64,000 bases of DNA from an uncultured Pirellulaceae bacterium (GCA_937981585.1 CALJOA010000060.1:1-64000); one strand, 5' to 3'; shown: positions 41,878 to 56,589, numbered from the stretch's first letter. Program-made: numbers and translations. Notes: generated from the sequence alone by a model not told the origin.

Positions 41878-43077
41878 CTAGCTGGGTTCACGAACGGTTC
41901 CCGGTTTTGGCGCTTCTAGCAGGGCGTTACATCCAACCATTGCCGAGCTTTCGTCAACCGTATATTTCGAGATCGGGCTTGGTCGACCGTAATAGAAACC
42001 TTGACCAAGCTGAAATCCCATTTGAACCAGAATTTCATGACATTCTCGAGTTTCGACGCCCTCTGCAAGCGTCTGGATTCCAAGATTGTTGACCAAATTA
42101 GCAAACAAAGCCACCAGCTCCTGCCGTTTGGGGGGCGCGTGCTCGATGTTCTTTGTCAGCTTCATATCGAACTTGAGGAATTCAGGTCGGACTTCGCCAA
42201 GCTCAACAAGACGCGCCCGTCCAACACCAAAATCATCGAATGCAAGCTGAATGTTCAAGTCCTTAAGGACTGCACAAAGCTCTCGCATCATCGTCATATT
42301 GGTCGACGCACCTTCGTGAATTTCAAGCGTGATGGCCTGCTCAGGAGCGGCTTCGCGAACTTCACGAAGTGAATCATAAAACTCGGGACGATCTAGTTCC
42401 TTGGGATGTGTATTGACGAACAGGTTTGACTCGGATCCAAAAGCGGTGCCGATTTCAATTCCTCGCAACCGGAAGGCTTCGCTCAGCTGTGCTTCGAGTC
42501 CCAACTGCGAGGCAGCACTGAACATTTCATGAGGAGTCTGAAGTCCAAACAAACGACTACGACCCAGAACCTCATATCCAATCCGTGATTGGTCATCAAG
42601 TCGTACCAGCGGTTGGAAGTGTGGATACAACCCACCATCGCTGATCAAGCGTTCAAACTGGATCATCGCCAATGCTGAATCGCAAACGTCCTCGTGGATC
42701 GTGTGTGTATTGGTCTGTGCAATTTGGTTCTTCGATCCAACACGGAAAACTATCGATGCAAAGTGAATCAGATCGTTCTCTTTGATCGTGGTCTCACCTT
42801 CGACTTTAACTCCATTGACAAACGTACCGTTGGTGCTGCCCAGTTCTTGAAGAATCAACCCTGCCGGAGTCTCCTTGACGACCGCATGGTCTTTGGAAAT
42901 ACATCCGACCGGTAGAGGTAGAGAAGACTCTTCTCGGCGGCCAATGGTGAACGGGAATGTATGTAGGGGATACTGACGGTTCGAATCAGACTCATCGATC
43001 TGCCCAGACAAGAACCATTGTGTTTGGCTCTGATCCTGATGGTTTTCGACGTTAGGATTTGAAGTTGTTTCAGTCAT
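41878..43077 (-). CDS. FHA domain-EAL domain protein (c-di-GMP phosphodiesterase-like)
   Basis: FHA: FTIGRREESSLPLPVGCISKDHAVVKE...ELGSTNGTFVNGVKV. EAL: YEVLGR, LEIHEGA, FDDFGVGRARL, LAEGVET, GQGFYYGRPSP. Start MTETTSNP at 43077. Confidence 0.88.
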   Translation of the reverse strand: MTETTSNPNVENHQDQSQTQWFLSGQIDESDSNRQYPLHTFPFTIGRREESSLPLPVGCISKDHAVVKETPAGLILQELGSTNGTFVNGVKVEGETTIKENDLIHFASIVFRVGSKNQIAQTNTHTIHEDVCDSALAMIQFERLISDGGLYPHFQPLVRLDDQSRIGYEVLGRSRLFGLQTPHEMFSAASQLGLEAQLSEAFRLRGIEIGTAFGSESNLFVNTHPKELDRPEFYDSLREVREAAPEQAITLEIHEGASTNMTMMRELCAVLKDLNIQLAFDDFGVGRARLVELGEVRPEFLKFDMKLTKNIEHAPPKRQELVALFANLVNNLGIQTLAEGVETRECHEILVQMGFQLGQGFYYGRPSPISKYTVDESSAMVGCNALLEAPKPGTVREPS

Positions 43078-43408
43078 GGGAGGAGGATCGTTGGTAACGA
43101 TTTTCAATAGGTGTTGTTTTCTGCAGTTGCAGGAAGCGACGAAACTTTCGTCTGAGATTTTTAGCTCTCGGTTAAGGTCAACGCGGGCAAATTTGGGGTC
43201 AGCTTGGCTAAATCCGCAAGAATCGCCAAGTCCTTGGGTACGGTTAATCGGATTTAAATGATCACAAGGAACGTCCGGATCGCAATCCCGACGATGCCTG
43301 CCTGCGATAGCGAATATTCGGTTATCAGGGTGTTGAGATACTGATGATTGGCCAAATGGTCGATTGAAAGATTGATTGAATCTCCAAAAGCAGAACTTTT
43401 CTAACACT

Positions 43409-44773
43409 ATGTCCACCACTACCCATTCCACTCTCAGCAGCGGCCTACTGGCTACGATTATGGCGGACGAATCTTTCCGTCCGTCGGAGCCAGCATCGCT
43501 TCAAGAAGCCGGGCTACCAGTTTCCCTGGTGGAATCCTTGATCATCAAGCGCCTGGCGGTGGTGGGAATGACAAGCGGAAGGCAGTTGGCAAACGACCTC
43601 TGTCTGCCATTTGCGGCTTTGGAAAAGACGTATCAACATTTGCGATCTCGGCAAATGATTGTCCACAGCGGCTCTGCGCCACTCAACGACTACAACTATG
43701 TTTTGACCGAAACTGGAGTCGATCGGGCAGCAGTTGCCAGACAAGCCTGCTCGTACGTCGGCCCGGCACCTGTTCCGCTGATGGACTACGTGCTCAGTGC
43801 TGAAGCCCAGACTATCCGAGCCGAGGCCCCCAAACGGGCCCAGCTTCGACACGCATTTCGCGACATTTCAATCAATGAGTCACTGTTTGAGAGTCTCGGG
43901 CCAGCAATTAACTCTGGGGCAGGGCTATTTCTTTACGGTGAACCAGGCAACGGAAAATCGACGATCGCCCAACGGATAACACAGTGCTTTGGCCATGAAA
44001 TCTGGATTCCTCAAACGATCTTCGAAGACGGCCAGTTGATCAAGTTTTACGACGCGGCCTACCATCAGAAAGCTTCCGACGATTCGGATTCGCTCATTCA
44101 CGAAGCCGCGTTTGACAAACGATGGGTCAAAATTCGCCGACCAACCGTTGTAGTTGGAGGTGAGTTGACGATGGACTCGCTTGAGATTCGCCACGATCCG
44201 ATTTCCAACGTTAGCGAAGCTTCGCTGCAGATGAAAAGCAATTGTGGTTGCCTGCTGGTTGACGATTTTGGACGTCAGCGAATTGAACCAGGTGAGTTGC
44301 TCAATCGCTGGATCGTTCCTTTAGAAAGTCGAATTGATTTTTTGACACTTTCGTCCGGCAAAAAGATCCAAGTCCCATTCGAGCAGTTGATCATTTTCTC
44401 AACCAACCTTGAACCATCCGACTTGGTCGATGACGCGTTCCTCCGCAGAATCCCTTACAAGATCGAAATTGGTGATCCCAGCCCGAAGGAATTCCATGTC
44501 TTGTTTCAGATATATTGCGACAAGTTCAAGTGTGAATACAAACCGGAAGTGGTTGACTACCTGTTGAACACACACTTTCTCAGTACGGGTCGACGATTGA
44601 GGCGTTGCCACCCCCGAGACTTGCTCAGCCAAATTCGCAGCTTTTGTGTCTACAACGAACTGCCAATTGAACTGCGGCCAGAGTATTTCGATCGCGTGGT
44701 CAAGAGTTACTTTACAGACGTTTTGGACAGCAAGGACGGCAAGCCCAAAACGATGGCCAAAGGCGTCAGCTAA
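43409..44773 (+). CDS. AAA+ ATPase with N-terminal winged-helix-like region
   Basis: Walker A GLFLYGEPGNGKST, Walker B GCLLVDDFG, sensor-like LIIFSTNLEPSDL, arginine-rich AFLRRIPYKI. The N-terminus (GRQLANDLCLPFAALEKTYQHLRSRQMI) reads as wHTH. Confidence 0.85.
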   Translation: MSTTTHSTLSSGLLATIMADESFRPSEPASLQEAGLPVSLVESLIIKRLAVVGMTSGRQLANDLCLPFAALEKTYQHLRSRQMIVHSGSAPLNDYNYVLTETGVDRAAVARQACSYVGPAPVPLMDYVLSAEAQTIRAEAPKRAQLRHAFRDISINESLFESLGPAINSGAGLFLYGEPGNGKSTIAQRITQCFGHEIWIPQTIFEDGQLIKFYDAAYHQKASDDSDSLIHEAAFDKRWVKIRRPTVVVGGELTMDSLEIRHDPISNVSEASLQMKSNCGCLLVDDFGRQRIEPGELLNRWIVPLESRIDFLTLSSGKKIQVPFEQLIIFSTNLEPSDLVDDAFLRRIPYKIEIGDPSPKEFHVLFQIYCDKFKCEYKPEVVDYLLNTHFLSTGRRLRRCHPRDLLSQIRSFCVYNELPIELRPEYFDRVVKSYFTDVLDSKDGKPKTMAKGVS

Positions 44774-44865: not shown

Positions 44866-47800
44866 GTGCTCTCCGAACCCCTTTCAGCTGATAAACACAT
44901 CCTGGGCTATACACTCAAGGAAAGAATTGGAGCGGGCGGATTCGGCGAGGTCTGGTCTGCGGTCGCACCTGGTGGACTACTCAAGGCCCTCAAGGTCGTT
45001 TACGGATTTCACGATGAGAAGCGCGCTCAAGCGGAAATGAAGGCGCTTGACCGAGTCAAGGAGCTGAGACATCCGTTCTTGTTGTCGCTTGAGCGAATCG
45101 AAATCCACGAAGGCCAGTTGATTGTGGTGACCGAACTGGCAGATAACAGCTTGGCTGATGTCTACAATGAATTCGCGGCAAGAGGCGAAGGAGGAATTCC
45201 TCGAGAAGACCTGGTCAAGTACATTCGATCGGCTGCCGATGCGCTGGACTATTTGAGCGACGAACATGGGCTTCAGCACCTCGATATTAAACCAGAGAAC
45301 CTGTTGATGGTCAGTGGCCACGTCAAAGTGGCTGACTTTGGTTTGATCAAAGACTTGCAGGATGCCTCTCAATCGTTGATGTCAGGTATGACGCCGGCCT
45401 ACGCCGCTCCAGAACTATTCGATGGCCGCCCCGGTCGCTTCAGCGATCAGTATTCGCTGGCGATTGTGTACCAGGAGATGTTGACCGGAGTTCGTCCGTT
45501 CCCGGGACTAACTCCTGCCCAGTTGGCGGCTCAACACATGCACGGCAAACCGAATCTGCGACCGTTGCCGCAAAGTGACCAACCGGTCATTTCAAAGGCC
45601 CTCTCCAAAGATCCTGTAGTTCGCTTTAAATCCTGCCGTGACATGGCAGAAGAACTGGGAAACAAAAAGCGAAAAGTTCGCAAAGCGATTCGAAGAACAA
45701 CAGAGTCTCGAAGTGCAGCAGACACCGAATCGCCAACCATCGGACTCGATTCAACGAGAACAGGCGGGACGGCTTTGATCTCCGGAGGTTCCGGGTTGCC
45801 GTTCCAGGCTGCCGAACTGAAATCACTCGACCCTCCACAGTGCGACGGCGAACAAGCCAAACTCAGACCTGTTTTGATTGTAGGAGTGGGAGAAACCGGC
45901 AACACAGTTATCGAGAAACTGAAAACAAATCTTACCCTTCGACATGGTTCGATGGAATTTGCACCTGCCATCAGCTGGCTCTGTATCGATTCGGATCGAC
46001 CAGCGCTTAACGAAATGCGCATGAACAGGTCTGAAGGCTCATTGCTGCCCAACGAAATTCTCGAAATCCCATTGCGGAAATCAGCGGACTACCGAAACAG
46101 CTCGGAGCAGCATCTGAGCTGGCTAAGCCGACGTTGGATCTATAATATCCCGCGCTCGCTGCAAACCGAGGGACTGCGACCGCTTGGACGCCTGGCATTT
46201 GCAGACCATTTCGAAGCCATCTGCGATCGGTTGCAGGAAGGAATCAAAAAAATCTCGATCGAAGAGAACTTGGCTAAAACCGCTGACTTTCTTGACTTGG
46301 ATCCAGGTGAACTCTCTCCTCGCGTTTTCGTTGTCACCTCAATCAGTGGTGGTTTGGGCAGTGGAATGACGTTGGACCTGGCCTATACGATCAAACTGCT
46401 GATGCACGAGGCGGGACTTTCGACGGATCAAGTGGTAGGAGTACTGACGCATTCGACCTACCAGAGATCCAGAGACCCCGGACTCTCGGCGGCCAATGCG
46501 TTCGCCTTTCTCACCGAGATGCGGCACTTTGTTGAACACGGATTCCCTGGCGACAACACGATAGGGTTACCAGAGCTGGATGAAGGCGCCCCGTTTGACT
46601 ACACCTACTTCAATGACCTTGGGGACGACCTGAGCCAATCCGATTTTGACTCTCAACTCGAAAAAATCGCTGAGTACATCTACCTCTCTACGACAACCAA
46701 ATGTTCGGAGTTCTTTGATGCTTGTCGATCATTTGAGTCCGAGATCGAGCACTTGTCACTGCGAACCTTCGGACTCGGCGTCAGCAACCAGACCGCAGGT
46801 GAAAAACTCACCAATGAAGTCGGACGAGGGCTGTTAAGACTTTGGACCCAAGGGGATCCCGGAGTTGAATTTGATGCCTACGCAAAGGTTGAACAAATAT
46901 TCGGCTCTGCTGGCCTGATGCATGATGACGCAGTCGCTCGGGTCAAGAGCATAGCGATTTCGACACTCGATGGGGCCTTTGCCCCAATAATTGACGGAGC
47001 ACGGGAGATCGCCTCCAGCCTCAATCCTCATTGTCGTGAAGAGCTTCAAGACTACCTTGATGGAGCGTTCGGATGTAGCGCCTCGCGCCGGACGTCAAAT
47101 GACGCCGATCCGGAAATATGCCTGGAGATGGAAGACCTCATTGGAAGTCTCGGGTTGGAATCTGGTGATCAGGTATCCACGGCGATTCTCGGACTCATTG
47201 ATGGCAACGAAATGAGACTGCACGATGCCAGAATGACTTGTGAAATTGCGATCAAAAAAATCGCTGCGCTCGGCCAACAACTGGCTCACAACGCTGGTGA
47301 GGTTGAGAAGGCGACTCTCAATCATCTTGCCGAGATACAAAATCTCAATGCCGACGAGTCTGGCTCTGAATTGCTTGAAGCATCGTTGGCGGAGTACTGT
47401 AACTCACGGCTGACCGAATTCATCATGCGCTACGTGAAATCTACTTATCAGATGGTCAGTCAAGCGCTCGACTCGGTTCGGTTGATGCTCGAAAAGTATG
47501 GAACCCAGCTACGCGCCGTCGAAAGTGATTTTGCTGCTAACGACGAACTGGAGATTCTCAGCGACGAGACGACCGTGGACTCTCTCCTCAATGACAGTAT
47601 CGCGGACGAACTCCAACAACATATCGCACAAACGGAGTTACAAGTTTACGAATCTTTTGCAAAGGAAAATGGCGGCTTCCGTCAGATGCTTGAATCTCCA
47701 TCGGTGCGGCACGATCGCCTAGTGAAGGAAGTCCGCGACTCGACTCAAAAAGTTCTCAGTAACGCGTTCCGTAAAGTCTCATTGGAGTCGGTAATCACTC

Positions 47801-48147
47801 AACACAATATCGGCCCCGAACAACTCGTCAAATGGCTCAACAACAAGATTGTCGATGCACAGCCGAAACTTGATTCGTGCGGAGGTAGTTCAAGACTGTT
47901 GATCGGATTGCCATCGCTCTCGGAGGGATCATTGCTGCCAGAGATGTTGGATAAGCAGTTCCAATTAAAGGGTTGTGACCTAAAGGGAACTGCCGGCAAC
48001 TTTGTGTTGTGTTTTGAAGTCGAAGACGTTTCGTTTGCTAACGTTGCGTTTCGGCTTCTTGAGGCTAGGCCCGATGCGATCGAACTGGTCAAGCGTATCC
48101 AAACGCGAAAAGACATCGAGTGGACAACGCTCGACGATCTGCTTTAG
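44866..48147 (+). CDS. Ser/Thr protein kinase fused to a tubulin/FtsZ-like GTPase domain
   Basis: Kinase: RIGAGGFGEVW, ALKVV, HLDIKPENLL, VADFGL, AAPELF, FSDQYSLAIVYQEMLTG. Tubulin-like: VLIVGVGETGNTVIEKLK and SISGGLGSGMTLDLAYTIK (GGxGSG G-box). GTG start, RBS ggagga. Confidence 0.85.
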   Translation: MLSEPLSADKHILGYTLKERIGAGGFGEVWSAVAPGGLLKALKVVYGFHDEKRAQAEMKALDRVKELRHPFLLSLERIEIHEGQLIVVTELADNSLADVYNEFAARGEGGIPREDLVKYIRSAADALDYLSDEHGLQHLDIKPENLLMVSGHVKVADFGLIKDLQDASQSLMSGMTPAYAAPELFDGRPGRFSDQYSLAIVYQEMLTGVRPFPGLTPAQLAAQHMHGKPNLRPLPQSDQPVISKALSKDPVVRFKSCRDMAEELGNKKRKVRKAIRRTTESRSAADTESPTIGLDSTRTGGTALISGGSGLPFQAAELKSLDPPQCDGEQAKLRPVLIVGVGETGNTVIEKLKTNLTLRHGSMEFAPAISWLCIDSDRPALNEMRMNRSEGSLLPNEILEIPLRKSADYRNSSEQHLSWLSRRWIYNIPRSLQTEGLRPLGRLAFADHFEAICDRLQEGIKKISIEENLAKTADFLDLDPGELSPRVFVVTSISGGLGSGMTLDLAYTIKLLMHEAGLSTDQVVGVLTHSTYQRSRDPGLSAANAFAFLTEMRHFVEHGFPGDNTIGLPELDEGAPFDYTYFNDLGDDLSQSDFDSQLEKIAEYIYLSTTTKCSEFFDACRSFESEIEHLSLRTFGLGVSNQTAGEKLTNEVGRGLLRLWTQGDPGVEFDAYAKVEQIFGSAGLMHDDAVARVKSIAISTLDGAFAPIIDGAREIASSLNPHCREELQDYLDGAFGCSASRRTSNDADPEICLEMEDLIGSLGLESGDQVSTAILGLIDGNEMRLHDARMTCEIAIKKIAALGQQLAHNAGEVEKATLNHLAEIQNLNADESGSELLEASLAEYCNSRLTEFIMRYVKSTYQMVSQALDSVRLMLEKYGTQLRAVESDFAANDELEILSDETTVDSLLNDSIADELQQHIAQTELQVYESFAKENGGFRQMLESPSVRHDRLVKEVRDSTQKVLSNAFRKVSLESVITQHNIGPEQLVKWLNNKIVDAQPKLDSCGGSSRLLIGLPSLSEGSLLPEMLDKQFQLKGCDLKGTAGNFVLCFEVEDVSFANVAFRLLEARPDAIELVKRIQTRKDIEWTTLDDLL

Positions 48148-48200: not shown

Positions 48201-49170
48201 TTAGTCTCCCAACACGTACGCGAAGATCAGCGGCGCGACGATCGAAGCGTCAGAGTTGATCATAAACCTTGGCGTGTCTGCCGAAATCTTGCACCAAGTG
48301 ATCTTTTCGTTGGGCACCGCCCCGGAATAAGAACCGTAAGACGTCGTCGAGTCTGAGATCTGCGCAAAGTAGCCCCAGAGCCGGATGTTCTTCTTCAAGT
48401 CCTGAATGATCGTGGGGACCGCGCAAATCGCAAAATCACCAGCGATACCACCGGCAATCTGGAAGAATCCGATCGAAGCATTCGCCTCATTTTCCAGATA
48501 CCAGCTAACCAAGTGTTCCATCTGCTGGGTTCCGCTTTTGACCGCCGCGTGTGAGCTGATCTTCTGCTCGATCACTCTGGCAGCAAAGATATTGCCCAGC
48601 GTCGAGTCTTCCCAACCGGGGCTGTAAACCGGAATTCCTTTTTCATAAGCCGCCAACATCCAGGAGTCTTCTGGCGGAATCTGAAAATGAGGCTCCAACA
48701 CCTTGGTTTCGAACAACTCGTAAAAGACTTCGAAGGGAAACATCGAGTCTCCCGAATCGGCCAGTCGCGAGCAGACGTTCATGAAGTTGTCTTCGATGTG
48801 ACGCATCACCGATTCAGGAATGCAGGTATCGGTTACTCGATTGAAACCTTGATCCAGCAGTTCGGTTTCAGCTTCTGGTGACAAATCGCGATAGTTTGAG
48901 ACAATGTGATAGTCGTTGTGTGCAACGAGGTTGAAGATGTCTTCTTCAAGGTTGGCCCCCGTACAGGAAATCGCATGCACCTTGTCTTGGCGGATCATTC
49001 TGGCAAGTGAAATGCCCAACTCTGCCGTACTCATGGCGCCACCAAGACTGACCAGCATTTTACCGCCGTCTGCCAAATGTTGCCGGTAAGCCTTCGCTGC
49101 GTCGAGCGTTTCTCGCGCGTTGAAATGCAGGAAATTTTGCTCCAGAAAACTGGAAATCGGTGAGTCAGCC
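48201..49170 (-). CDS. Deoxyhypusine synthase family protein
   Basis: MLVSLGGAMSTAELGISLARMIRQDKVHAISCTGANLEEDIFNLVAHNDY, GIPVYSPGWEDSTLGN, ICAVPTIIQDLKKN. Confidence 0.88.
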
Positions 49171-49382
49171 ATACGCCTATCGCCCGCTAGTTGAGGCAAA
49201 AAAGAAACGTCAATTGTTGCTTGGGTTCAACAGGTTCCAAAAAAGCAACGTGCGAAGTCCGAGGATTTTACAAGAACCCTGCGGTTTCAACAACTTGTTG
49301 GGGTTAGGCACAGTTGGAACCCCATTTGCATTTGTGGTCGGTATCAAATCAACTTGGAACCTCCGTCACAAAAGAAATATCA

Positions 49383-50234
49383 ATGCACGCCAACCAACTT
49401 GCAGAACTAGGTAGCTGGGTCGCCACAAACGCTGGGTCACTTATCTACGGTGAGAACGGACAGCCCGCGCTTGTCTCAACCGGCTACTGGACATCGTCAA
49501 GAATACGCCTAAACCGCTGGACGACGGCATTGAAAATGTTCGAGCAGGACTTCACAGACTCCACACCAAGTCACGATCCGTGGCCAGCGTTATCGATTGT
49601 TGTGCAAGAGATTCTGATGTCCGAACTCCTGACTCGAGTCTGGGCAGCGGTTGTATCGTCACACGACTGGTACCGACAATCCGACGAAATGCATGGACTG
49701 GCTCACTCGGTACACGTTGGTCACATTGAAGCCAAAAATCGTGCGTTTCGCGTCATGCTGGAAGGCCGCGAGTTGAACGAAGAGATGTTTGATCAGATGA
49801 ATGCTCTCCGAAGACGGATTGAACGTTGGACTGATCTTTTTCTTGGCCAGTTGCCCAGCGCCTCGGAATCTGCAAAGTTCGCATTTGATCGCAGCCGAGT
49901 TGCAGACTTTAACGAAGAACAAAATGAGTCGTTTGGCCCGGATCACACCATTCGCCTGAAAGTTCTGGCAGCCTCGTTTTCTTCAGACCTTCTCAGAAGC
50001 AACATTGACTTTGCAGCAAACCCGGATCTCAATCGAGAGATTGCCGCTGGAATTCTTGGCTGCTTTCCATCAGACCGATTCGATTCGTTTGGGCTTCCAA
50101 AATCAGTGCGAACGATCTGGCTCGAGAAATCACAAACCGACACCCAATTGCTGATCGATCGTTTGGTTGAGTTTGAGAACCAAGCCGAAACTCGTCCGAC
50201 CGAGAAAGTGCCTCACATTTGGAGTCGCAACTAA
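49383..50234 (+). CDS. Hypothetical protein
   Basis: Uninterrupted ORF with plausible ATG (MHANQLAELGSW); no recognisable family. Confidence 0.6.
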   Translation: MHANQLAELGSWVATNAGSLIYGENGQPALVSTGYWTSSRIRLNRWTTALKMFEQDFTDSTPSHDPWPALSIVVQEILMSELLTRVWAAVVSSHDWYRQSDEMHGLAHSVHVGHIEAKNRAFRVMLEGRELNEEMFDQMNALRRRIERWTDLFLGQLPSASESAKFAFDRSRVADFNEEQNESFGPDHTIRLKVLAASFSSDLLRSNIDFAANPDLNREIAAGILGCFPSDRFDSFGLPKSVRTIWLEKSQTDTQLLIDRLVEFENQAETRPTEKVPHIWSRN

Positions 50235-50252: not shown

Positions 50253-52427
50253 CTATTGGATACGTGACCAATCCTTCTCAAGAATCTCGTCGGTGTCTTT
50301 AGCCTCGACAGGTTTAGAGTATAGAAAACCCTGAAAGTAGTCGCACTGCAAGCCTTGCAGATAAGCCGCCTGAGCTGAGGTTTCGATGCCTTCTGCGATT
50401 ACTTTGAGCCCGAGGTTTTGAGCCAATCCAATAATTGACCGAACGATCGCCTGGTGCTTTTTAGATTCGGATAAATTCGCCACGAACGAGCGATCAATCT
50501 TGAGCACTTTGAGCGGCATCTGGTGCAGGTACGAAAGCGACGAGTATCCTGTTCCGAAATCATCGATGCTTGTCGTCACCCCCATCGACTCGAGCCTCTC
50601 AAGCAACTCAATCATCTCGTCTGGCTTCTGCATCAGCAAGCTTTCGGTGACTTCGAGTTTGAGCTGACTTGCCGCGATTCCTGAACCGGCAAGTGCCGTT
50701 TGCACGTGCTCAAGAAAATCTGAACCGCTGAATTGTCTCATCGAGACGTTAACGCTGATTTGAATCTCCCGGTCTGACTTCTGATTCCAAATGGTGGCCT
50801 GTTTACAAGCCTGTTGAAGTACCCAATTGCCGATCTCGACAATCATCCCGTTGGACTCCGCGATCGGAATGAAGTCGTTGGGTGAAATGTTTCCGTGAAC
50901 AGGATGATGCCAGCGAATCAACGCTTCGAAACCAGCCGTTTGCATCGTGCTGGAATCGATAATCGGCTGGTAAGCCAACGACAATTCGTCCCGTCGAATC
51001 GCATCCTTTAGTTCGCTGGCAATTTCCAGTCGCGCGGCCGACTCTTGTTGCATCCGATCTTCAAAGGCGCTGATACAATTTTCAGAGAACTGCTTGCCAT
51101 GGTACATCGCCGTGTCAGCTTGACGCATAATTTCGTCCACCGAAGCGTTTTTCTGTGAAACGACCACGACTCCGATGCTGACCCTTGCCAGAATTTCGCG
51201 ACCGTTTATCGAAAACGGCGCCTTGATTCGCTCCTGAATTCGCTCGGCGACTTTCATCGCTTCGCCAATTTTGTTGATGCCTTCGATCAAGATGCCGAAT
51301 TCGTCTCCGCCTAACCGTGACAAAACGGCTTCTGATTGACGTAGGCAGGAATCCAGTCGAGCTGATATCTGAATCAGGAATTCGTCACCGACATCATGGC
51401 CCATTGAATCATTGATGAGCTTGAAATCGTTGACGTCGATGTAAAATACCGCGAAGCGTCGCGTTCCATTTCGTTTGTATTGTTCAACACAACGTTCCAC
51501 GCGGTCGTGAAACAAAGTTCGATTAGGCAGCCGCGTCAGCGCGTCGGCGACTTTTCCTTCGGTAATGTCCGTCAGTGAACCAGCGATCCGCGTGGGTACT
51601 CCGTCCCCGTCGCGAACTGCCAGTCCACGGCAAAGCATCCAACGAAAACCGCCCGAGTGATCGGGCATTCGCAATTCGGTTTCAAAGTGGCTGCTTTCGC
51701 CGCACAAGTGGGCTTCGAGGTCCGAAAGAACTCGGTCGCGATCTTCGTGAAACACCAGCTCCAACCACGACGTGCCGTGAGCAACCCAATTTGGATCCTC
51801 AATTCCGACCATGGCGATCCAGCGAGGGGAAAGATATATTTCACCAGTATCAAGATTCCAATCCCAGATGCCATCTCGCGTTCCTTGCGAGGCCAGAGCA
51901 TATCGTTGCTCGCTTTCACGAAGCGCCTCCAACGCACGCATCAGCTTGAACTGGGCTTCGATTCGAGCGATCAAGCTCGCTTGTTGGATCGGTTTGGCAA
52001 GATAATCGCTTGCACCGGCATCAAAACAACCGACGACTTGCGCTTCTTCTAAACTAGATGTCATCATAATGATGGGTAGGTCAGTACTGCCGTGCATCTG
52101 TCGCATCATCCGCAAGGTAGAGAGGCCGTCCATCACCGGCATTGAAATGTCCATCAACACCAAATCGGGTTTGTTCGAATTCATCGAAGTCAGTGCTTCC
52201 TGACCATTTTCGGCAGTCAGAATTTCGTATCCGGCGATCTCAAGGTGATGGGCAAGTAGCTTCCGCGTCACCATTTCGTCATCAACCACCAGAATCTTAC
52301 CTGCAGATACTGCTGGCGAACCGGAAACAGTTGGCATCTGCTTTGGCGCGTCACGCTCTAGAGAGACAGCGGGAAAAACCAGCTGTTCCGATGAAGGCAA
52401 ATTCGATTGTGGGCTATTGCGGATCAT
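50253..52427 (-). CDS. Response regulator: REC-PAS-GGDEF-EAL
   Basis: REC: ILVVDDEMVTRKLL...LVLMDISMPVMDG. PAS: RYALASQGTRDGIWDWNLDTGEIYLSPRW. GGDEF: LSRLGGDEFGIL. EAL: GFEALIRWHHP, SIDDFGTGYSSL. Confidence 0.95.
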   Translation of the reverse strand: MIRNSPQSNLPSSEQLVFPAVSLERDAPKQMPTVSGSPAVSAGKILVVDDEMVTRKLLAHHLEIAGYEILTAENGQEALTSMNSNKPDLVLMDISMPVMDGLSTLRMMRQMHGSTDLPIIMMTSSLEEAQVVGCFDAGASDYLAKPIQQASLIARIEAQFKLMRALEALRESEQRYALASQGTRDGIWDWNLDTGEIYLSPRWIAMVGIEDPNWVAHGTSWLELVFHEDRDRVLSDLEAHLCGESSHFETELRMPDHSGGFRWMLCRGLAVRDGDGVPTRIAGSLTDITEGKVADALTRLPNRTLFHDRVERCVEQYKRNGTRRFAVFYIDVNDFKLINDSMGHDVGDEFLIQISARLDSCLRQSEAVLSRLGGDEFGILIEGINKIGEAMKVAERIQERIKAPFSINGREILARVSIGVVVVSQKNASVDEIMRQADTAMYHGKQFSENCISAFEDRMQQESAARLEIASELKDAIRRDELSLAYQPIIDSSTMQTAGFEALIRWHHPVHGNISPNDFIPIAESNGMIVEIGNWVLQQACKQATIWNQKSDREIQISVNVSMRQFSGSDFLEHVQTALAGSGIAASQLKLEVTESLLMQKPDEMIELLERLESMGVTTSIDDFGTGYSSLSYLHQMPLKVLKIDRSFVANLSESKKHQAIVRSIIGLAQNLGLKVIAEGIETSAQAAYLQGLQCDYFQGFLYSKPVEAKDTDEILEKDWSRIQ

Positions 52428-52436
52428 TTGATATTC

Positions 52437-55400
52437 TTAAGCCAACAATTCCCCAAGTTCACGAAGCGTCGCCTCGATGCGCTCTTCCAATTCCGTCAAC
52501 GTTTTTGGAATCAACTCCTGCTGATTGGCGTTCGCATAGTTCTCAAGCTTTTCAGCCGAGTCACAGATTGCAAGCAAAGAGGTATCACTGGCAGCGCCTT
52601 TTAGTTGATGTGCGATCGAACGCACTCGTGGAACATCGTTTTTCAGATTGGCTTGACGCAGTTCAACAATTCGCTCCGGCAACGTGTCTTTCATGATCGA
52701 AAGCAGCTGAAACTGAAGCTCTCGATTGCCGTTGCAACGCTGATCCATCGATACTTGATCAAAGTAAGTGTCGCTGCCACTCACGCCCAAACTCGAAACT
52801 GAATTCGCATCGGCAGATGGAACTGATTGCTGGATTGCAGGCTCGGCGGCACGCAAAGCCGTCTCCGGGGACGGAGCTTCAGTTGGGTGCTTGTCTCCAT
52901 GTCGGCGCTGCGGATGGACAGCAGACTTCGGCGGTTGAGCTTGAATAACGCGTGATCGAGTTGGCACCAACGCTGGACCAATTGGTTCACCCACGAATTC
53001 CATCGTCGCTGCCTGCAAACGCTCCATTGTGATCGGCTTGCAAAGGTAGTCGTTCATTCCCGCGTCCAAACAACGCTGCTTGAATCCGGCAATCACATTT
53101 GCGGTCAGGGCAACGATCGGTGTGCTGCGAAAGTCTGGATCGTTGGCCTGTTGCTCGAGCTCCCATTGGCGAATCTTCTTACTGGCGGTTAAGCCATCAA
53201 GGATTGGCATGTGGCCATCCATCAAGACCATTCGATAGCTTCCAGTCTGAATCCTCTCCAATGCGGCTTGCCCGTTGGCAACAACCTCCGTCGTGTAACC
53301 GAGGCTCGAAAGCATTTGCTGAACGACAATTTGGTTGATCTGGTTGTCTTCAGCAATCAGGATATCGGCCGTAAACGATGGATCTAGTTCGATTGCCGAG
53401 GCGACTTCATTGATCTCGTCAAGGGAAAATACCTTGCCCTTTATGTTACTTCGCACCGGAGGAGCAGTGTCAAGAGGAGCAGTATCTAGCGGCGCAACTT
53501 CAATGTTGGCTGCCGGTGCTGGGCGGCTTTGTCGATTCTGGCAGACAACTGAAACAATTGAATCGAACAGTCGACTTTGTCTCGCTGGCTTTGTCATTGC
53601 CACTTGAATTCCTGCTTCTCGGAGTTCATCGCGGGTCATCAGATCATGATTGCTCGAAAGCATGATGATCGGAACGCTGGACAGCTCAGGATGGTCTTTC
53701 AGTTGCATCGCAACATCGCGACCGTCCATCACCGGCATGCAGAAATCAAGAATGATCAAGTCAAAGGGACGCTCGAGGCGTTGAGCGACCAGCAACTTTT
53801 GGACAACAGCACTCGATTGTCGACAAACCGTTGACCTCATACCCCAACTCGCCAGCTGATTCTCAAGAATTTCGCAGTTGGTAGCGTTATCATCAACAAT
53901 CAAAACGTTGCAATTGGACAAGCCCTCCAGGACTTTCTCCAGATCCTGCTCTTCGGGAACTTCGTTTTCTATGACGACCATGGGAATTTCAAACCAGAAA
54001 TTGGACCCCTCTCCAGGTAAGCTATCTACTTTTAGCTTGCCGCCCATAAGCTGAACCAGATTACTGACGATCGTCAGTCCCAATCCGCTTCCACCGTACT
54101 TTCGAGTCGTCGACGGATCGGCTTGGACGAAGGACTCAAACAAACTTTCCTTGGCGTCGTCTTGGATCCCGATCCCGGTGTCTTGAACACTAAAGTGAAT
54201 CACGCTTCCTCGTCGCGAAACACACAAGTTAATCTCACCCGTTTCGGTAAACTTAATGGCATTGCCCATTAGATTGATAATCGACTGCCGCAAACGCTCT
54301 GGATCACCGTTGACCAGAAACGGCAAATCGGGGGCCAAACGGCAATTCATTTCCAGACCTTTGGTGTGAGCGCGGATGGCAAACTGCTCTGCCGTCGACT
54401 CCATCAATTCCCGCAAATCGAATTCGACTTGTTCGAGCTCCAGTCGACCTGCTTCAATTTTTGAAAAGTCCAAGATGTCATTGATCAACGATAACAGCGT
54501 GTCTGCACTTGAGCGCGCAACGCTGATATAGTTTTCTTCTTTGGAATCCTGCTCGCTGGTTGCCAGTAAATCCAGCATTCCAATTACGCCGTTGAGTGGG
54601 GTACGAATCTCATGGCTCATATTGGCCAGAAATTCACCTTTGGCGATGCTCTTGGCTTCTGCTACTTCGACTTCGGCCATCATGGACTGCTTGCGTTGGG
54701 TAACATCGTGAACCGTACCCAGCCAAACAACCAACCGGCCGTTCTCATCGCGAATCGGAACGATGCTTTCCAACAACCAACGTCGTTCGCCAGCGGGGTC
54801 AACAAATTCAGTCTCCAGATCTTTAACGGCTTCGCCGCGTTCAAAGTGGCCTGCAACTGATTGAGCCTGCTCGCCGTGCCAGGGAATCAGGAATTCCTGT
54901 TCCTGATCGATCAAAGCCGAAGACGAAGCGTACCCAAAGATCTGCAACAGCGTAGGATTGGCGGATTGGAATCGCCCGTTTTCGTCCAACTGATAAATAC
55001 CAACACCGGCGTGTTTAAGCACCGACTGCAGGCGAAGTTTCTCGCCTTGCAAGATCTGGTTTGTAGTTTGATGCCCCAGAACTTCTTCGTCAACACGTGC
55101 GATTACGGCGTTGTACTCTGACGCGATCTGGCCAACTTCAGTGTCGGTATCAGTTTCGATTCGCGTTGAAAAGTTGCCGGTATGACGATGTTGATTCATC
55201 GCACCGAGCAAATCGGTAACCTCGTTGGTCGCACCATGCTCTACAACATTGAGCCCGATCTTCTCTTCACCAGCTTTAACCCGTAGTCGAGTAAAGAGAC
55301 TAAGAATTTTGAGGGCGCCGTAAACGGTAGTAAAGCTAAATCCACACGCCGCCGCCGCACCAGTTACCTGGACTCCTATTTGTATCAAACGACTTCCTGC

Positions 55401-56411
55401 CGGTAGCATTTCGGTCGGGGCAAAGAAAGCGAACACTAAGGTGCCCCAAAGGCCAGCGGCTCCATGAACAGCAAATGCACCAACCGCATCGTCGACACCA
55501 CATTTTCGAACCACTTCGATCGCCCACAGCGCCAGAATTCCACCGATCGCTCCGGCAAAAACTGCCGCCAATGGAGAGATTGCGAAACAGGCCCCAGTTA
55601 CCGAAACTAGCCCCGCCAGGGCACCGCTGATTAAGTCGACGACATCTGTTTTACGAGTCCGGATCCATGACCAGAAAGACGCGGCAATCAAACCAGCAAC
55701 TGCACCGAGGTTGGTGTTGAGCAGGACGATCGAGACATTTTCGTCGGCAGAAAGTCCGCTTCCTCCGTTGAAACCCCACCAGCCGAACCACAAAAGAAAG
55801 CAACCCATGATGGCCAGCGTCAGACTATGCCCACCTGTGAGTTTGCCACGTCGGTAGTTCCTTCGAGGGCCAATCGCAATCGCCGCCGCCAGCGCCGCGA
55901 ATCCACCACACAGGTGGACTACAGCAGTTCCAGCCCAGTCGACAAAGCCAAGTCGCGCCAGCCACCCGCTACCTGTGTTTTCAAGCGTTCCACCCCAGCA
56001 CCAATGTCCGATCAGCGGATACACGAATCCGCTCAGAACAAACACGATTACGAGGTAAGTTATCAACCGGGTTCGCTCGGCGATTGCACCACTGACAATC
56101 GTTGCAGCGGTACCACAGAAAACCATTTGAAACAGAAAGAAAGCACACAATTCGTTGCTTGACCAGAATTCGAAATGCGAACCGAACAAACCGTAGTTGG
56201 TTACACCGAACATGATCGAGAAACCGAAAGCCGCAAACACCAACATCGAAATTCCGAAATCCAAAAGATTTTTCACGGCGACGTTGATGCTGTTCTTAGC
56301 GCGAATCATGCCGCTTTCGAGCAAACAAAATCCGGCTTGCATCAGAAACACCAGCGCCGCGCAGATGAGGACGAATCCAACGTCCATGTTTTCGGGGGTT
56401 GCAGGGGACAT
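52437..56411 (-). CDS. Ammonium transporter fused to a hybrid sensor histidine kinase (Amt-PAS-HisKA-HATPase-REC-REC-HPt)
   Basis: Amt: LMQAGFCLLESGMIRAKNS, VDWAGTAVVHLCGG, VHGAAGLWGTL. HK: FLANMSHEIRTPLNGVIGMLD, GNAIKFTETG, GGSGLGLTIV. REC: VLIVDDNATNCEIL, DILIAEDNQINQIVVQQ. HPt: IAHQLKGAASD. Confidence 0.95.
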   Translation of the reverse strand: MSPATPENMDVGFVLICAALVFLMQAGFCLLESGMIRAKNSINVAVKNLLDFGISMLVFAAFGFSIMFGVTNYGLFGSHFEFWSSNELCAFFLFQMVFCGTAATIVSGAIAERTRLITYLVIVFVLSGFVYPLIGHWCWGGTLENTGSGWLARLGFVDWAGTAVVHLCGGFAALAAAIAIGPRRNYRRGKLTGGHSLTLAIMGCFLLWFGWWGFNGGSGLSADENVSIVLLNTNLGAVAGLIAASFWSWIRTRKTDVVDLISGALAGLVSVTGACFAISPLAAVFAGAIGGILALWAIEVVRKCGVDDAVGAFAVHGAAGLWGTLVFAFFAPTEMLPAGSRLIQIGVQVTGAAAACGFSFTTVYGALKILSLFTRLRVKAGEEKIGLNVVEHGATNEVTDLLGAMNQHRHTGNFSTRIETDTDTEVGQIASEYNAVIARVDEEVLGHQTTNQILQGEKLRLQSVLKHAGVGIYQLDENGRFQSANPTLLQIFGYASSSALIDQEQEFLIPWHGEQAQSVAGHFERGEAVKDLETEFVDPAGERRWLLESIVPIRDENGRLVVWLGTVHDVTQRKQSMMAEVEVAEAKSIAKGEFLANMSHEIRTPLNGVIGMLDLLATSEQDSKEENYISVARSSADTLLSLINDILDFSKIEAGRLELEQVEFDLRELMESTAEQFAIRAHTKGLEMNCRLAPDLPFLVNGDPERLRQSIINLMGNAIKFTETGEINLCVSRRGSVIHFSVQDTGIGIQDDAKESLFESFVQADPSTTRKYGGSGLGLTIVSNLVQLMGGKLKVDSLPGEGSNFWFEIPMVVIENEVPEEQDLEKVLEGLSNCNVLIVDDNATNCEILENQLASWGMRSTVCRQSSAVVQKLLVAQRLERPFDLIILDFCMPVMDGRDVAMQLKDHPELSSVPIIMLSSNHDLMTRDELREAGIQVAMTKPARQSRLFDSIVSVVCQNRQSRPAPAANIEVAPLDTAPLDTAPPVRSNIKGKVFSLDEINEVASAIELDPSFTADILIAEDNQINQIVVQQMLSSLGYTTEVVANGQAALERIQTGSYRMVLMDGHMPILDGLTASKKIRQWELEQQANDPDFRSTPIVALTANVIAGFKQRCLDAGMNDYLCKPITMERLQAATMEFVGEPIGPALVPTRSRVIQAQPPKSAVHPQRRHGDKHPTEAPSPETALRAAEPAIQQSVPSADANSVSSLGVSGSDTYFDQVSMDQRCNGNRELQFQLLSIMKDTLPERIVELRQANLKNDVPRVRSIAHQLKGAASDTSLLAICDSAEKLENYANANQQELIPKTLTELEERIEATLRELGELLA

Positions 56412-56589
56412 GACGGTTGTAGTGATCAAGGAATGTTTACGGAATCTTTATCCTTTAAACATTGCTTACGAAACCACGTTCCGTTTATGTCTGAGAAGTA
56501 TTCTCGGCATTAGTGCCGAAACTAAAACGTAGAATCGAAACTGCCATCACGATCCATCTAACCATGCAGCCAAACGCTTCAATTGCGTT

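Follow-up and report, generated by a model that had tools for sequence, protein, structure and literature searches.

A protein kinase fused to a tubulin-like domain in an uncultured Pirellulaceae bacterium is strictly co-inherited with two further genes, one encoding a AAA+ ATPase and the other a protein that combines FHA and EAL domains (FHA-EAL), and the three are very probably functional partners. Our best overall explanation, for which belief and doubt are evenly balanced, is that the fusion is a kinase-bearing member of the FtsZl1 family within a conserved signalling module completed by the other two proteins.

The fusion itself has already been published and is not a discovery. The main text of Makarova and Koonin (2010) describes four FtsZ-like proteins of Planctomycetes with an extra N-terminal kinase domain (PMC2875224), a 2023 paper on FtsZ/tubulin evolution records an N-terminal kinase domain in Planctomycetes (PMC9871819), and passages of a 2024 kinase survey give tubulin-like as the commonest partner domain exclusive to cytoplasmic Planctomycetota kinases (PMC11032199). 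The protein studied here resembles FtsZl1, as presented in the main text of the 2010 paper, in its phylum and in its order of kinase, FtsZ-like domain and long helical C-terminus, and it resembles the kinases in those passages of the 2024 survey in joining a Ser/Thr kinase to a tubulin-like domain in Planctomycetota. It differs in its company, since the neighbours named in the 2010 main text are vWA, kinase, GTPase and OmpA-like genes whereas those found here encode a AAA+ ATPase and an FHA-EAL protein; partner genes, a proposed mechanism and a predicted structure, which the passages of the 2024 survey do not give, are given here. This company of the fusion seems to be unreported in the full-text open-access literature searched, the main text of PMC2875224 included.

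Architecture of the fusion protein

The gene lies in a 64,000-nt stretch of DNA (the window) from a 3.5-Mb Pirellulaceae MAG that is 80% complete; its closest relatives with a name are Mariniblastus and other Pirellulaceae MAGs. The fusion comprises the following features.

44866-48147, + strand: coding sequence of the kinase–Tubulin_2 fusion, 1093 aa (open frame, Pfam, conservation)
44908-45669, + strand: Hanks-type kinase domain, residues 15-268 (PF00069, 6.7e-32)
45670-45867, + strand: kinase–GTPase linker, residues 269-334, rich in threonine and in Thr-x-x-hydrophobic motifs
45874-46758, + strand: Tubulin_2 (FtsZl1) GTPase-fold domain, residues 337-631 (PF13809, 2.6e-32; AlphaFold2/Foldseek)
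45883-45903, + strand: T1 loop GVGETGN, residues 340-346 (conservation; hhalign to E. coli FtsZ)
46126-46191, + strand: group signature SRRWxYNIPxSxxTEGxRPLGR, residues 421-442 (conservation)
46345-46365, + strand: T4 glycine box SGGLGSG, residues 494-500 (conservation)
46876-47859, + strand: long helical region, residues about 671-998 (AlphaFold2 secondary structure)
47887-48123, + strand: small C-terminal alpha/beta domain (AlphaFold2 model, alignment)

An earlier note on this DNA had proposed a single polypeptide in a planctomycete, with a complete N-terminal Hanks-type kinase followed by a member of the Pfam 'Tubulin-like' group, and this description holds throughout. The frame runs uninterrupted from a GTG start codon with GGAGG just upstream, the Pkinase match covers a complete domain, and both Pfam matches lie well above their thresholds (for Tubulin_2, 112.9 bits where 27 would suffice), the profile search of the GTPase region giving no placement in an unrelated Rossmann family. 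Of 25 genomes sampled from the genus, 22 retain the protein at full length. It contains no strongly hydrophobic (membrane-spanning) stretch and is the single Tubulin_2 protein of its host genome; one genome of the genus has a second Tubulin_2 protein (G007:C835:676-1644).

Within the kinase, the glycine loop GAGGFGEVW, the beta3 lysine (K43), the alphaC glutamate (E57) and the HLDIKPEN, DFG and APE motifs are near-invariant in the alignment, and the catalytic loop reads HLD in place of HRD, which makes the enzyme non-RD. Across 93 linkers (mean 72 aa) threonine reaches 8.8%, against 4.7% elsewhere. The density of Thr-x-x-[ILVMF] in these linkers is above that of shuffled linkers (z 6.8), with no enrichment over shuffles for the controls Ser-x-x-[ILVMF] (z 0.4) and Thr-x-x-Pro (z -2.0); the result pools related sequences, which align poorly outside the genus, and is exploratory because the hydrophobic set was widened after an earlier test with Thr-x-x-[ILVD] had yielded only about 1.6 standard deviations.

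The two nucleotide-binding motifs quoted in the earlier note are real: the T1 loop is followed about 155 residues on by the T4 box, and they are not chance matches, since each is retained in 30 homologues drawn from many families. Conserved loops in this set are T1 (in which G342 is invariant), T2 (D375/D377) and T4 (GGxG(S/G)G), and within the group signature R422, R423, W424, N427, P429, G436 and R438-R442 are invariant in all 30. An AlphaFold2 model of residues 326-1093, computed from a 30-sequence alignment of that region (mean pLDDT 86.7, pTM 0.77), shows an FtsZ-like alternation of strands and helices up to about residue 640 and then the long, mostly helical C-terminal part typical of FtsZl1; the C-terminal domain closes with an invariant RxxxRxDxxW (residues 1077-1086). 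When the PDB was searched with this model using Foldseek, all 50 matches listed were FtsZ or CetZ (best E 2e-5; TM-score to the target about 0.5). The domain identities and the tubulin GTPase fold, as the earlier note had called it, are thus practically certain.

Direct profile comparison with FtsZ gave little, which is why the fold search was used instead. The fusion scores 16 bits with PF00091, under the cut-off of 33; hhalign against E. coli FtsZ aligned the T1-T2 stretch alone, in one run (E 0.00078), and a comparison using a shorter alignment aligned nothing useful. PDB sequence matches to the profile running from the GTPase to the C-terminus were mainly coiled-coil or designed helical proteins and were rejected as composition bias.

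With FtsZ and CetZ the fusion shares the fold of the GTPase region and the T1, T2 and T4 loops. It differs from them in its sub-cut-off PF00091 score, the inserted SRRWxYNIPxS...RPLGR motif, an unrelated C-terminal part, the attached kinase and an unrecognisable T7 loop. An NxDxxD-type T7 loop between helix H7 and strand S7 is absent in 30 of 30 homologues, and three loose N...E matches are located elsewhere or isolated; the main text of the 2010 paper reports T6-H7 as unidentifiable in the FtsZl1 family (PMC2875224). Conservation of T1, T2 and T4 without a recognisable T7 makes nucleotide (GTP) binding by the FtsZl1 part likely and leaves FtsZ-type GTP hydrolysis unsupported, as it does the filament-forming GTPase of the earlier note. 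Because T7 is unrecognisable, the FtsZl1 part is probably a nucleotide-bound scaffold or oligomer, not a treadmilling FtsZ-like filament.

Co-inheritance with an ATPase and an FHA-EAL protein

The two companion genes lie upstream of the fusion in the window.

43376-44773, + strand: AAA+ ATPase, likely start 43409, with an N-terminal winged-helix-like domain (alignment, co-occurrence)
41878-43431, - strand: FHA-EAL protein, running divergently to the AAA gene and probably starting at the ATG at 43077 (Pfam, alignment, co-occurrence)

A count of homologous loci gave 97 distinct ones, at 93 of which the kinase is fused, with three cut by the contig start and one kinase-less. In the surroundings of 30 homologous loci, the genes that recur from family to family are those for the AAA+ ATPase and the FHA-EAL protein, and beyond this module no other gene common across families was found in the neighbourhoods. 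At the 77 loci with enough flanking sequence, FHA genes are nearby in 74 and AAA genes in 60; the host genome has only nine FHA matches in its 3.5 Mb.

The same association appears at the level of whole genomes. Tubulin_2 is present in 31 of 40 relatives, and the AAA orthologue (called at >700 bits, with paralogues <640) occurs in all 31 of these and in none of the nine others. The FHA-EAL protein (called at profile E below 1e-40) occurs in 30 of the 31 and again in none of the nine, the best match in one genome, G023, being weaker and possibly a paralogue. In a sample of the phylum (n=393), AAA scores of >750 bits were found in exactly the 10 genomes in which a kinase-fused protein was recognised and in 0 of the other 383. 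Fisher P values for these three comparisons are 3.7e-9 (AAA, relatives), 3.7e-8 (FHA-EAL, relatives) and 4.6e-20 (AAA, phylum), all of which overstate the strength of the association because phylogeny is ignored; the genomes are mostly MAGs, and absence from any one of them is weak evidence. The kinase, GTPase, AAA and FHA parts also show correlated divergence (r 0.70-0.86).

In several genomes the AAA gene is present without linkage to the fusion, and in G020 and G009 it neighbours the FHA-EAL gene at a distance from the fusion. The kinase-less locus (L070, genome G028) encodes an 839-aa FtsZl1 protein immediately after the AAA gene, and that genome yielded no FHA-EAL match anywhere, a pattern which suggests that the AAA gene accompanies the FtsZl1 part and the FHA-EAL gene the kinase; G028 is one MAG, weakly placed near the base of the tree, in which loss and primitive absence are inseparable.

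The alignment of the ATPase shows an invariant Walker A (GxPGNGK(S/T)), Walker B (DDFG), sensor 1 (STN) and arginines (RR), but every Pfam AAA model scores this divergent AAA+ protein below its cut-off. The structure predicted for it is poor over most of its length (pLDDT 50.7), with confidence limited to the winged-helix-like and C-terminal parts, and PDB sequence matches to VCP-like proteins or spastin cover short stretches of the Walker region and were rejected as a classification. Paralogues of the ATPase (L122, L124, L127 and L129) are widespread in the class, often two per genome; two of their neighbourhoods seem, by eye, to contain pilin- or TadE-like genes, and no consistent function was found among the paralogue neighbourhoods.

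In the FHA-EAL protein, the phosphopeptide-binding residues of the FHA domain (GR, S, H, STNG) are invariant in 26 of 26 sequences. The EAL catalytic residues E, N, E, DD, K, E and Q are intact in the window and the genus, and with this set complete the window protein is a predicted phosphodiesterase. The EAL domain is degenerate, with the FHA domain intact, in several families (L063, L064, L074-L079), and c-di-GMP hydrolysis is therefore not a conserved core of the module; the invariance of the FHA residues despite EAL decay makes the conserved function look like phosphothreonine reading. Genes encoding REC-GGDEF-CBS or CBS-GGDEF proteins adjoin the module in several families, and the window contains a further c-di-GMP gene near it, for a REC-PAS-GGDEF-EAL protein (50253-52427, - strand).

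Other genes downstream in the window include one for a deoxyhypusine-synthase-family protein (48201-49199, - strand; PF01916, 3.3e-40), which adjoins the fusion in several genomes, within the genus only; proteins of this family are more familiar from archaea and eukaryotes. A 306-aa protein with no Pfam match (49314-50234, + strand) is conserved beside the deoxyhypusine-synthase-like gene in some eight genomes belonging to the genus. Farther on is a 1330-aa transporter-sensor chimera (52437-56429, - strand) that unites an ammonium transporter with PAS, histidine kinase, two receiver domains and Hpt.

A proposed mechanism and its alternatives

FHA domains recognise phosphothreonine, with a preference at position +3, and kinases paired with FHA proteins are familiar from mycobacteria (PknB with FhaA or GarA) and from type VI secretion (PpkA/Fha). 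By analogy, the FHA protein encoded near the fusion would read a phosphothreonine made by the kinase, a docking that we propose here; the present pair differs in its fusion partners, a tubulin relative for the kinase and an EAL domain for the FHA domain. Taken together, the linker motifs, the invariant FHA residues and the module favour an assembly switched by phosphorylation. We infer that the kinase would autophosphorylate Thr-x-x-hydrophobic sites in the kinase–GTPase linker and that the FHA domain would dock on the resulting phosphothreonine, thereby bringing to the FtsZl1 assembly an EAL domain that would hydrolyse c-di-GMP or, where degenerate, might sense it or be purely regulatory. The state of the assembly would depend on bound GTP, and the AAA+ ATPase would remodel or disassemble it.

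These steps do not carry equal weight. Phosphorylation-controlled assembly, which the earlier note had suggested, is plausible and gains some indirect backing from the partner genes, and the chances of kinase-FHA docking appear even, whereas disassembly of FtsZl1 by the ATPase, a role assigned from ATPase class alone, is a tentative suggestion. That the parts make up a three-part circuit of phosphorylation, c-di-GMP and cytoskeleton peculiar to Pirellulales and related planctomycetes, with a switch thrown by the protein's own kinase, a phosphothreonine-binding c-di-GMP readout and a dedicated, spastin- or Vps4-like AAA+ disassembly, is a possibility that we regard as rather doubtful in its complete form.

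Several other explanations were weighed against this phospho-switched scaffold. Given FtsZ and CetZ as top fold matches and the conservation of T1, T2 and T4, the fusion might form dynamic, GTP-hydrolysing FtsZ/CetZ-like filaments whose polymerisation is set by the kinase, but this is unlikely in view of the unrecognisable T7 loop, the T6-H7 region left unidentified in the main text of PMC2875224, and the long C-terminal part, which could block or replace longitudinal contacts. FtsZl1 has been proposed to work with vWA, OmpA-like and GTPase partners in remodelling membranes, and an operon with vWA, OmpA-like and P-loop GTPase genes is typical of the family, though not required. A place in that machine would fit membership of the same family; the conserved partners here are instead AAA and FHA-EAL proteins, vWA and OmpA are not among the identified neighbours (BLAST-clustered and in part Pfam-scanned), and the lack of a strongly hydrophobic stretch further makes such a role quite unlikely. 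It is still less probable that the fusion belongs to an anti-phage or other conflict system. PADLOC does match the kinase domain to mad6 and PD-T4-6, there are weak IetA matches of the ATPase, and tubulin homologues are known in GTPase-centred conflict systems (PMC7159879). The PADLOC matches are nevertheless restricted to generic kinase and short ATPase regions, and a defence assignment was rejected with both the PADLOC and the NCBIfam matches being domain-generic; moreover, the partner genes of mad6 and PD-T4-6 differ from those of the module, which is nearly fixed in the genus, has parts that diverge together, and sits in neighbourhoods that otherwise share no gene across families.

The least probable of these explanations is that the fusion replaces FtsZ as a kinase-regulated filament constricting or positioning the division or budding site. 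Besides the tubulin/FtsZ fold, it has in its favour that no PF00091 match was found in the host genome, though this MAG is only 80% complete. The earlier note's hint of a stand-in for FtsZ is contradicted by phyletic distribution: PF00091 is present in 7 of 393 Planctomycetota genomes and a kinase fusion was recognised in no more than 10 of them, so that most FtsZ-less genomes of the phylum carry neither. Tubulin_2 was likewise not found in 3 of 25 genomes of the genus, nor in several other families of the order. FtsZl1 elsewhere is usually found together with FtsZ, according to the main text of PMC2875224, and the T7 loop is again unrecognisable. From its distribution the fusion cannot be a general FtsZ substitute, which leaves room for a lineage-specific role in division.

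Strict co-inheritance thus turns a kinase–tubulin fusion known since 2010 into a testable circuit, in which a tubulin-fold protein would be surrounded by a kinase, a protein that reads phosphothreonine, c-di-GMP and an ATPase that is a candidate remodeller, and the distribution of the fusion argues against a simple replacement of FtsZ in planctomycetes, which divide and bud without it.
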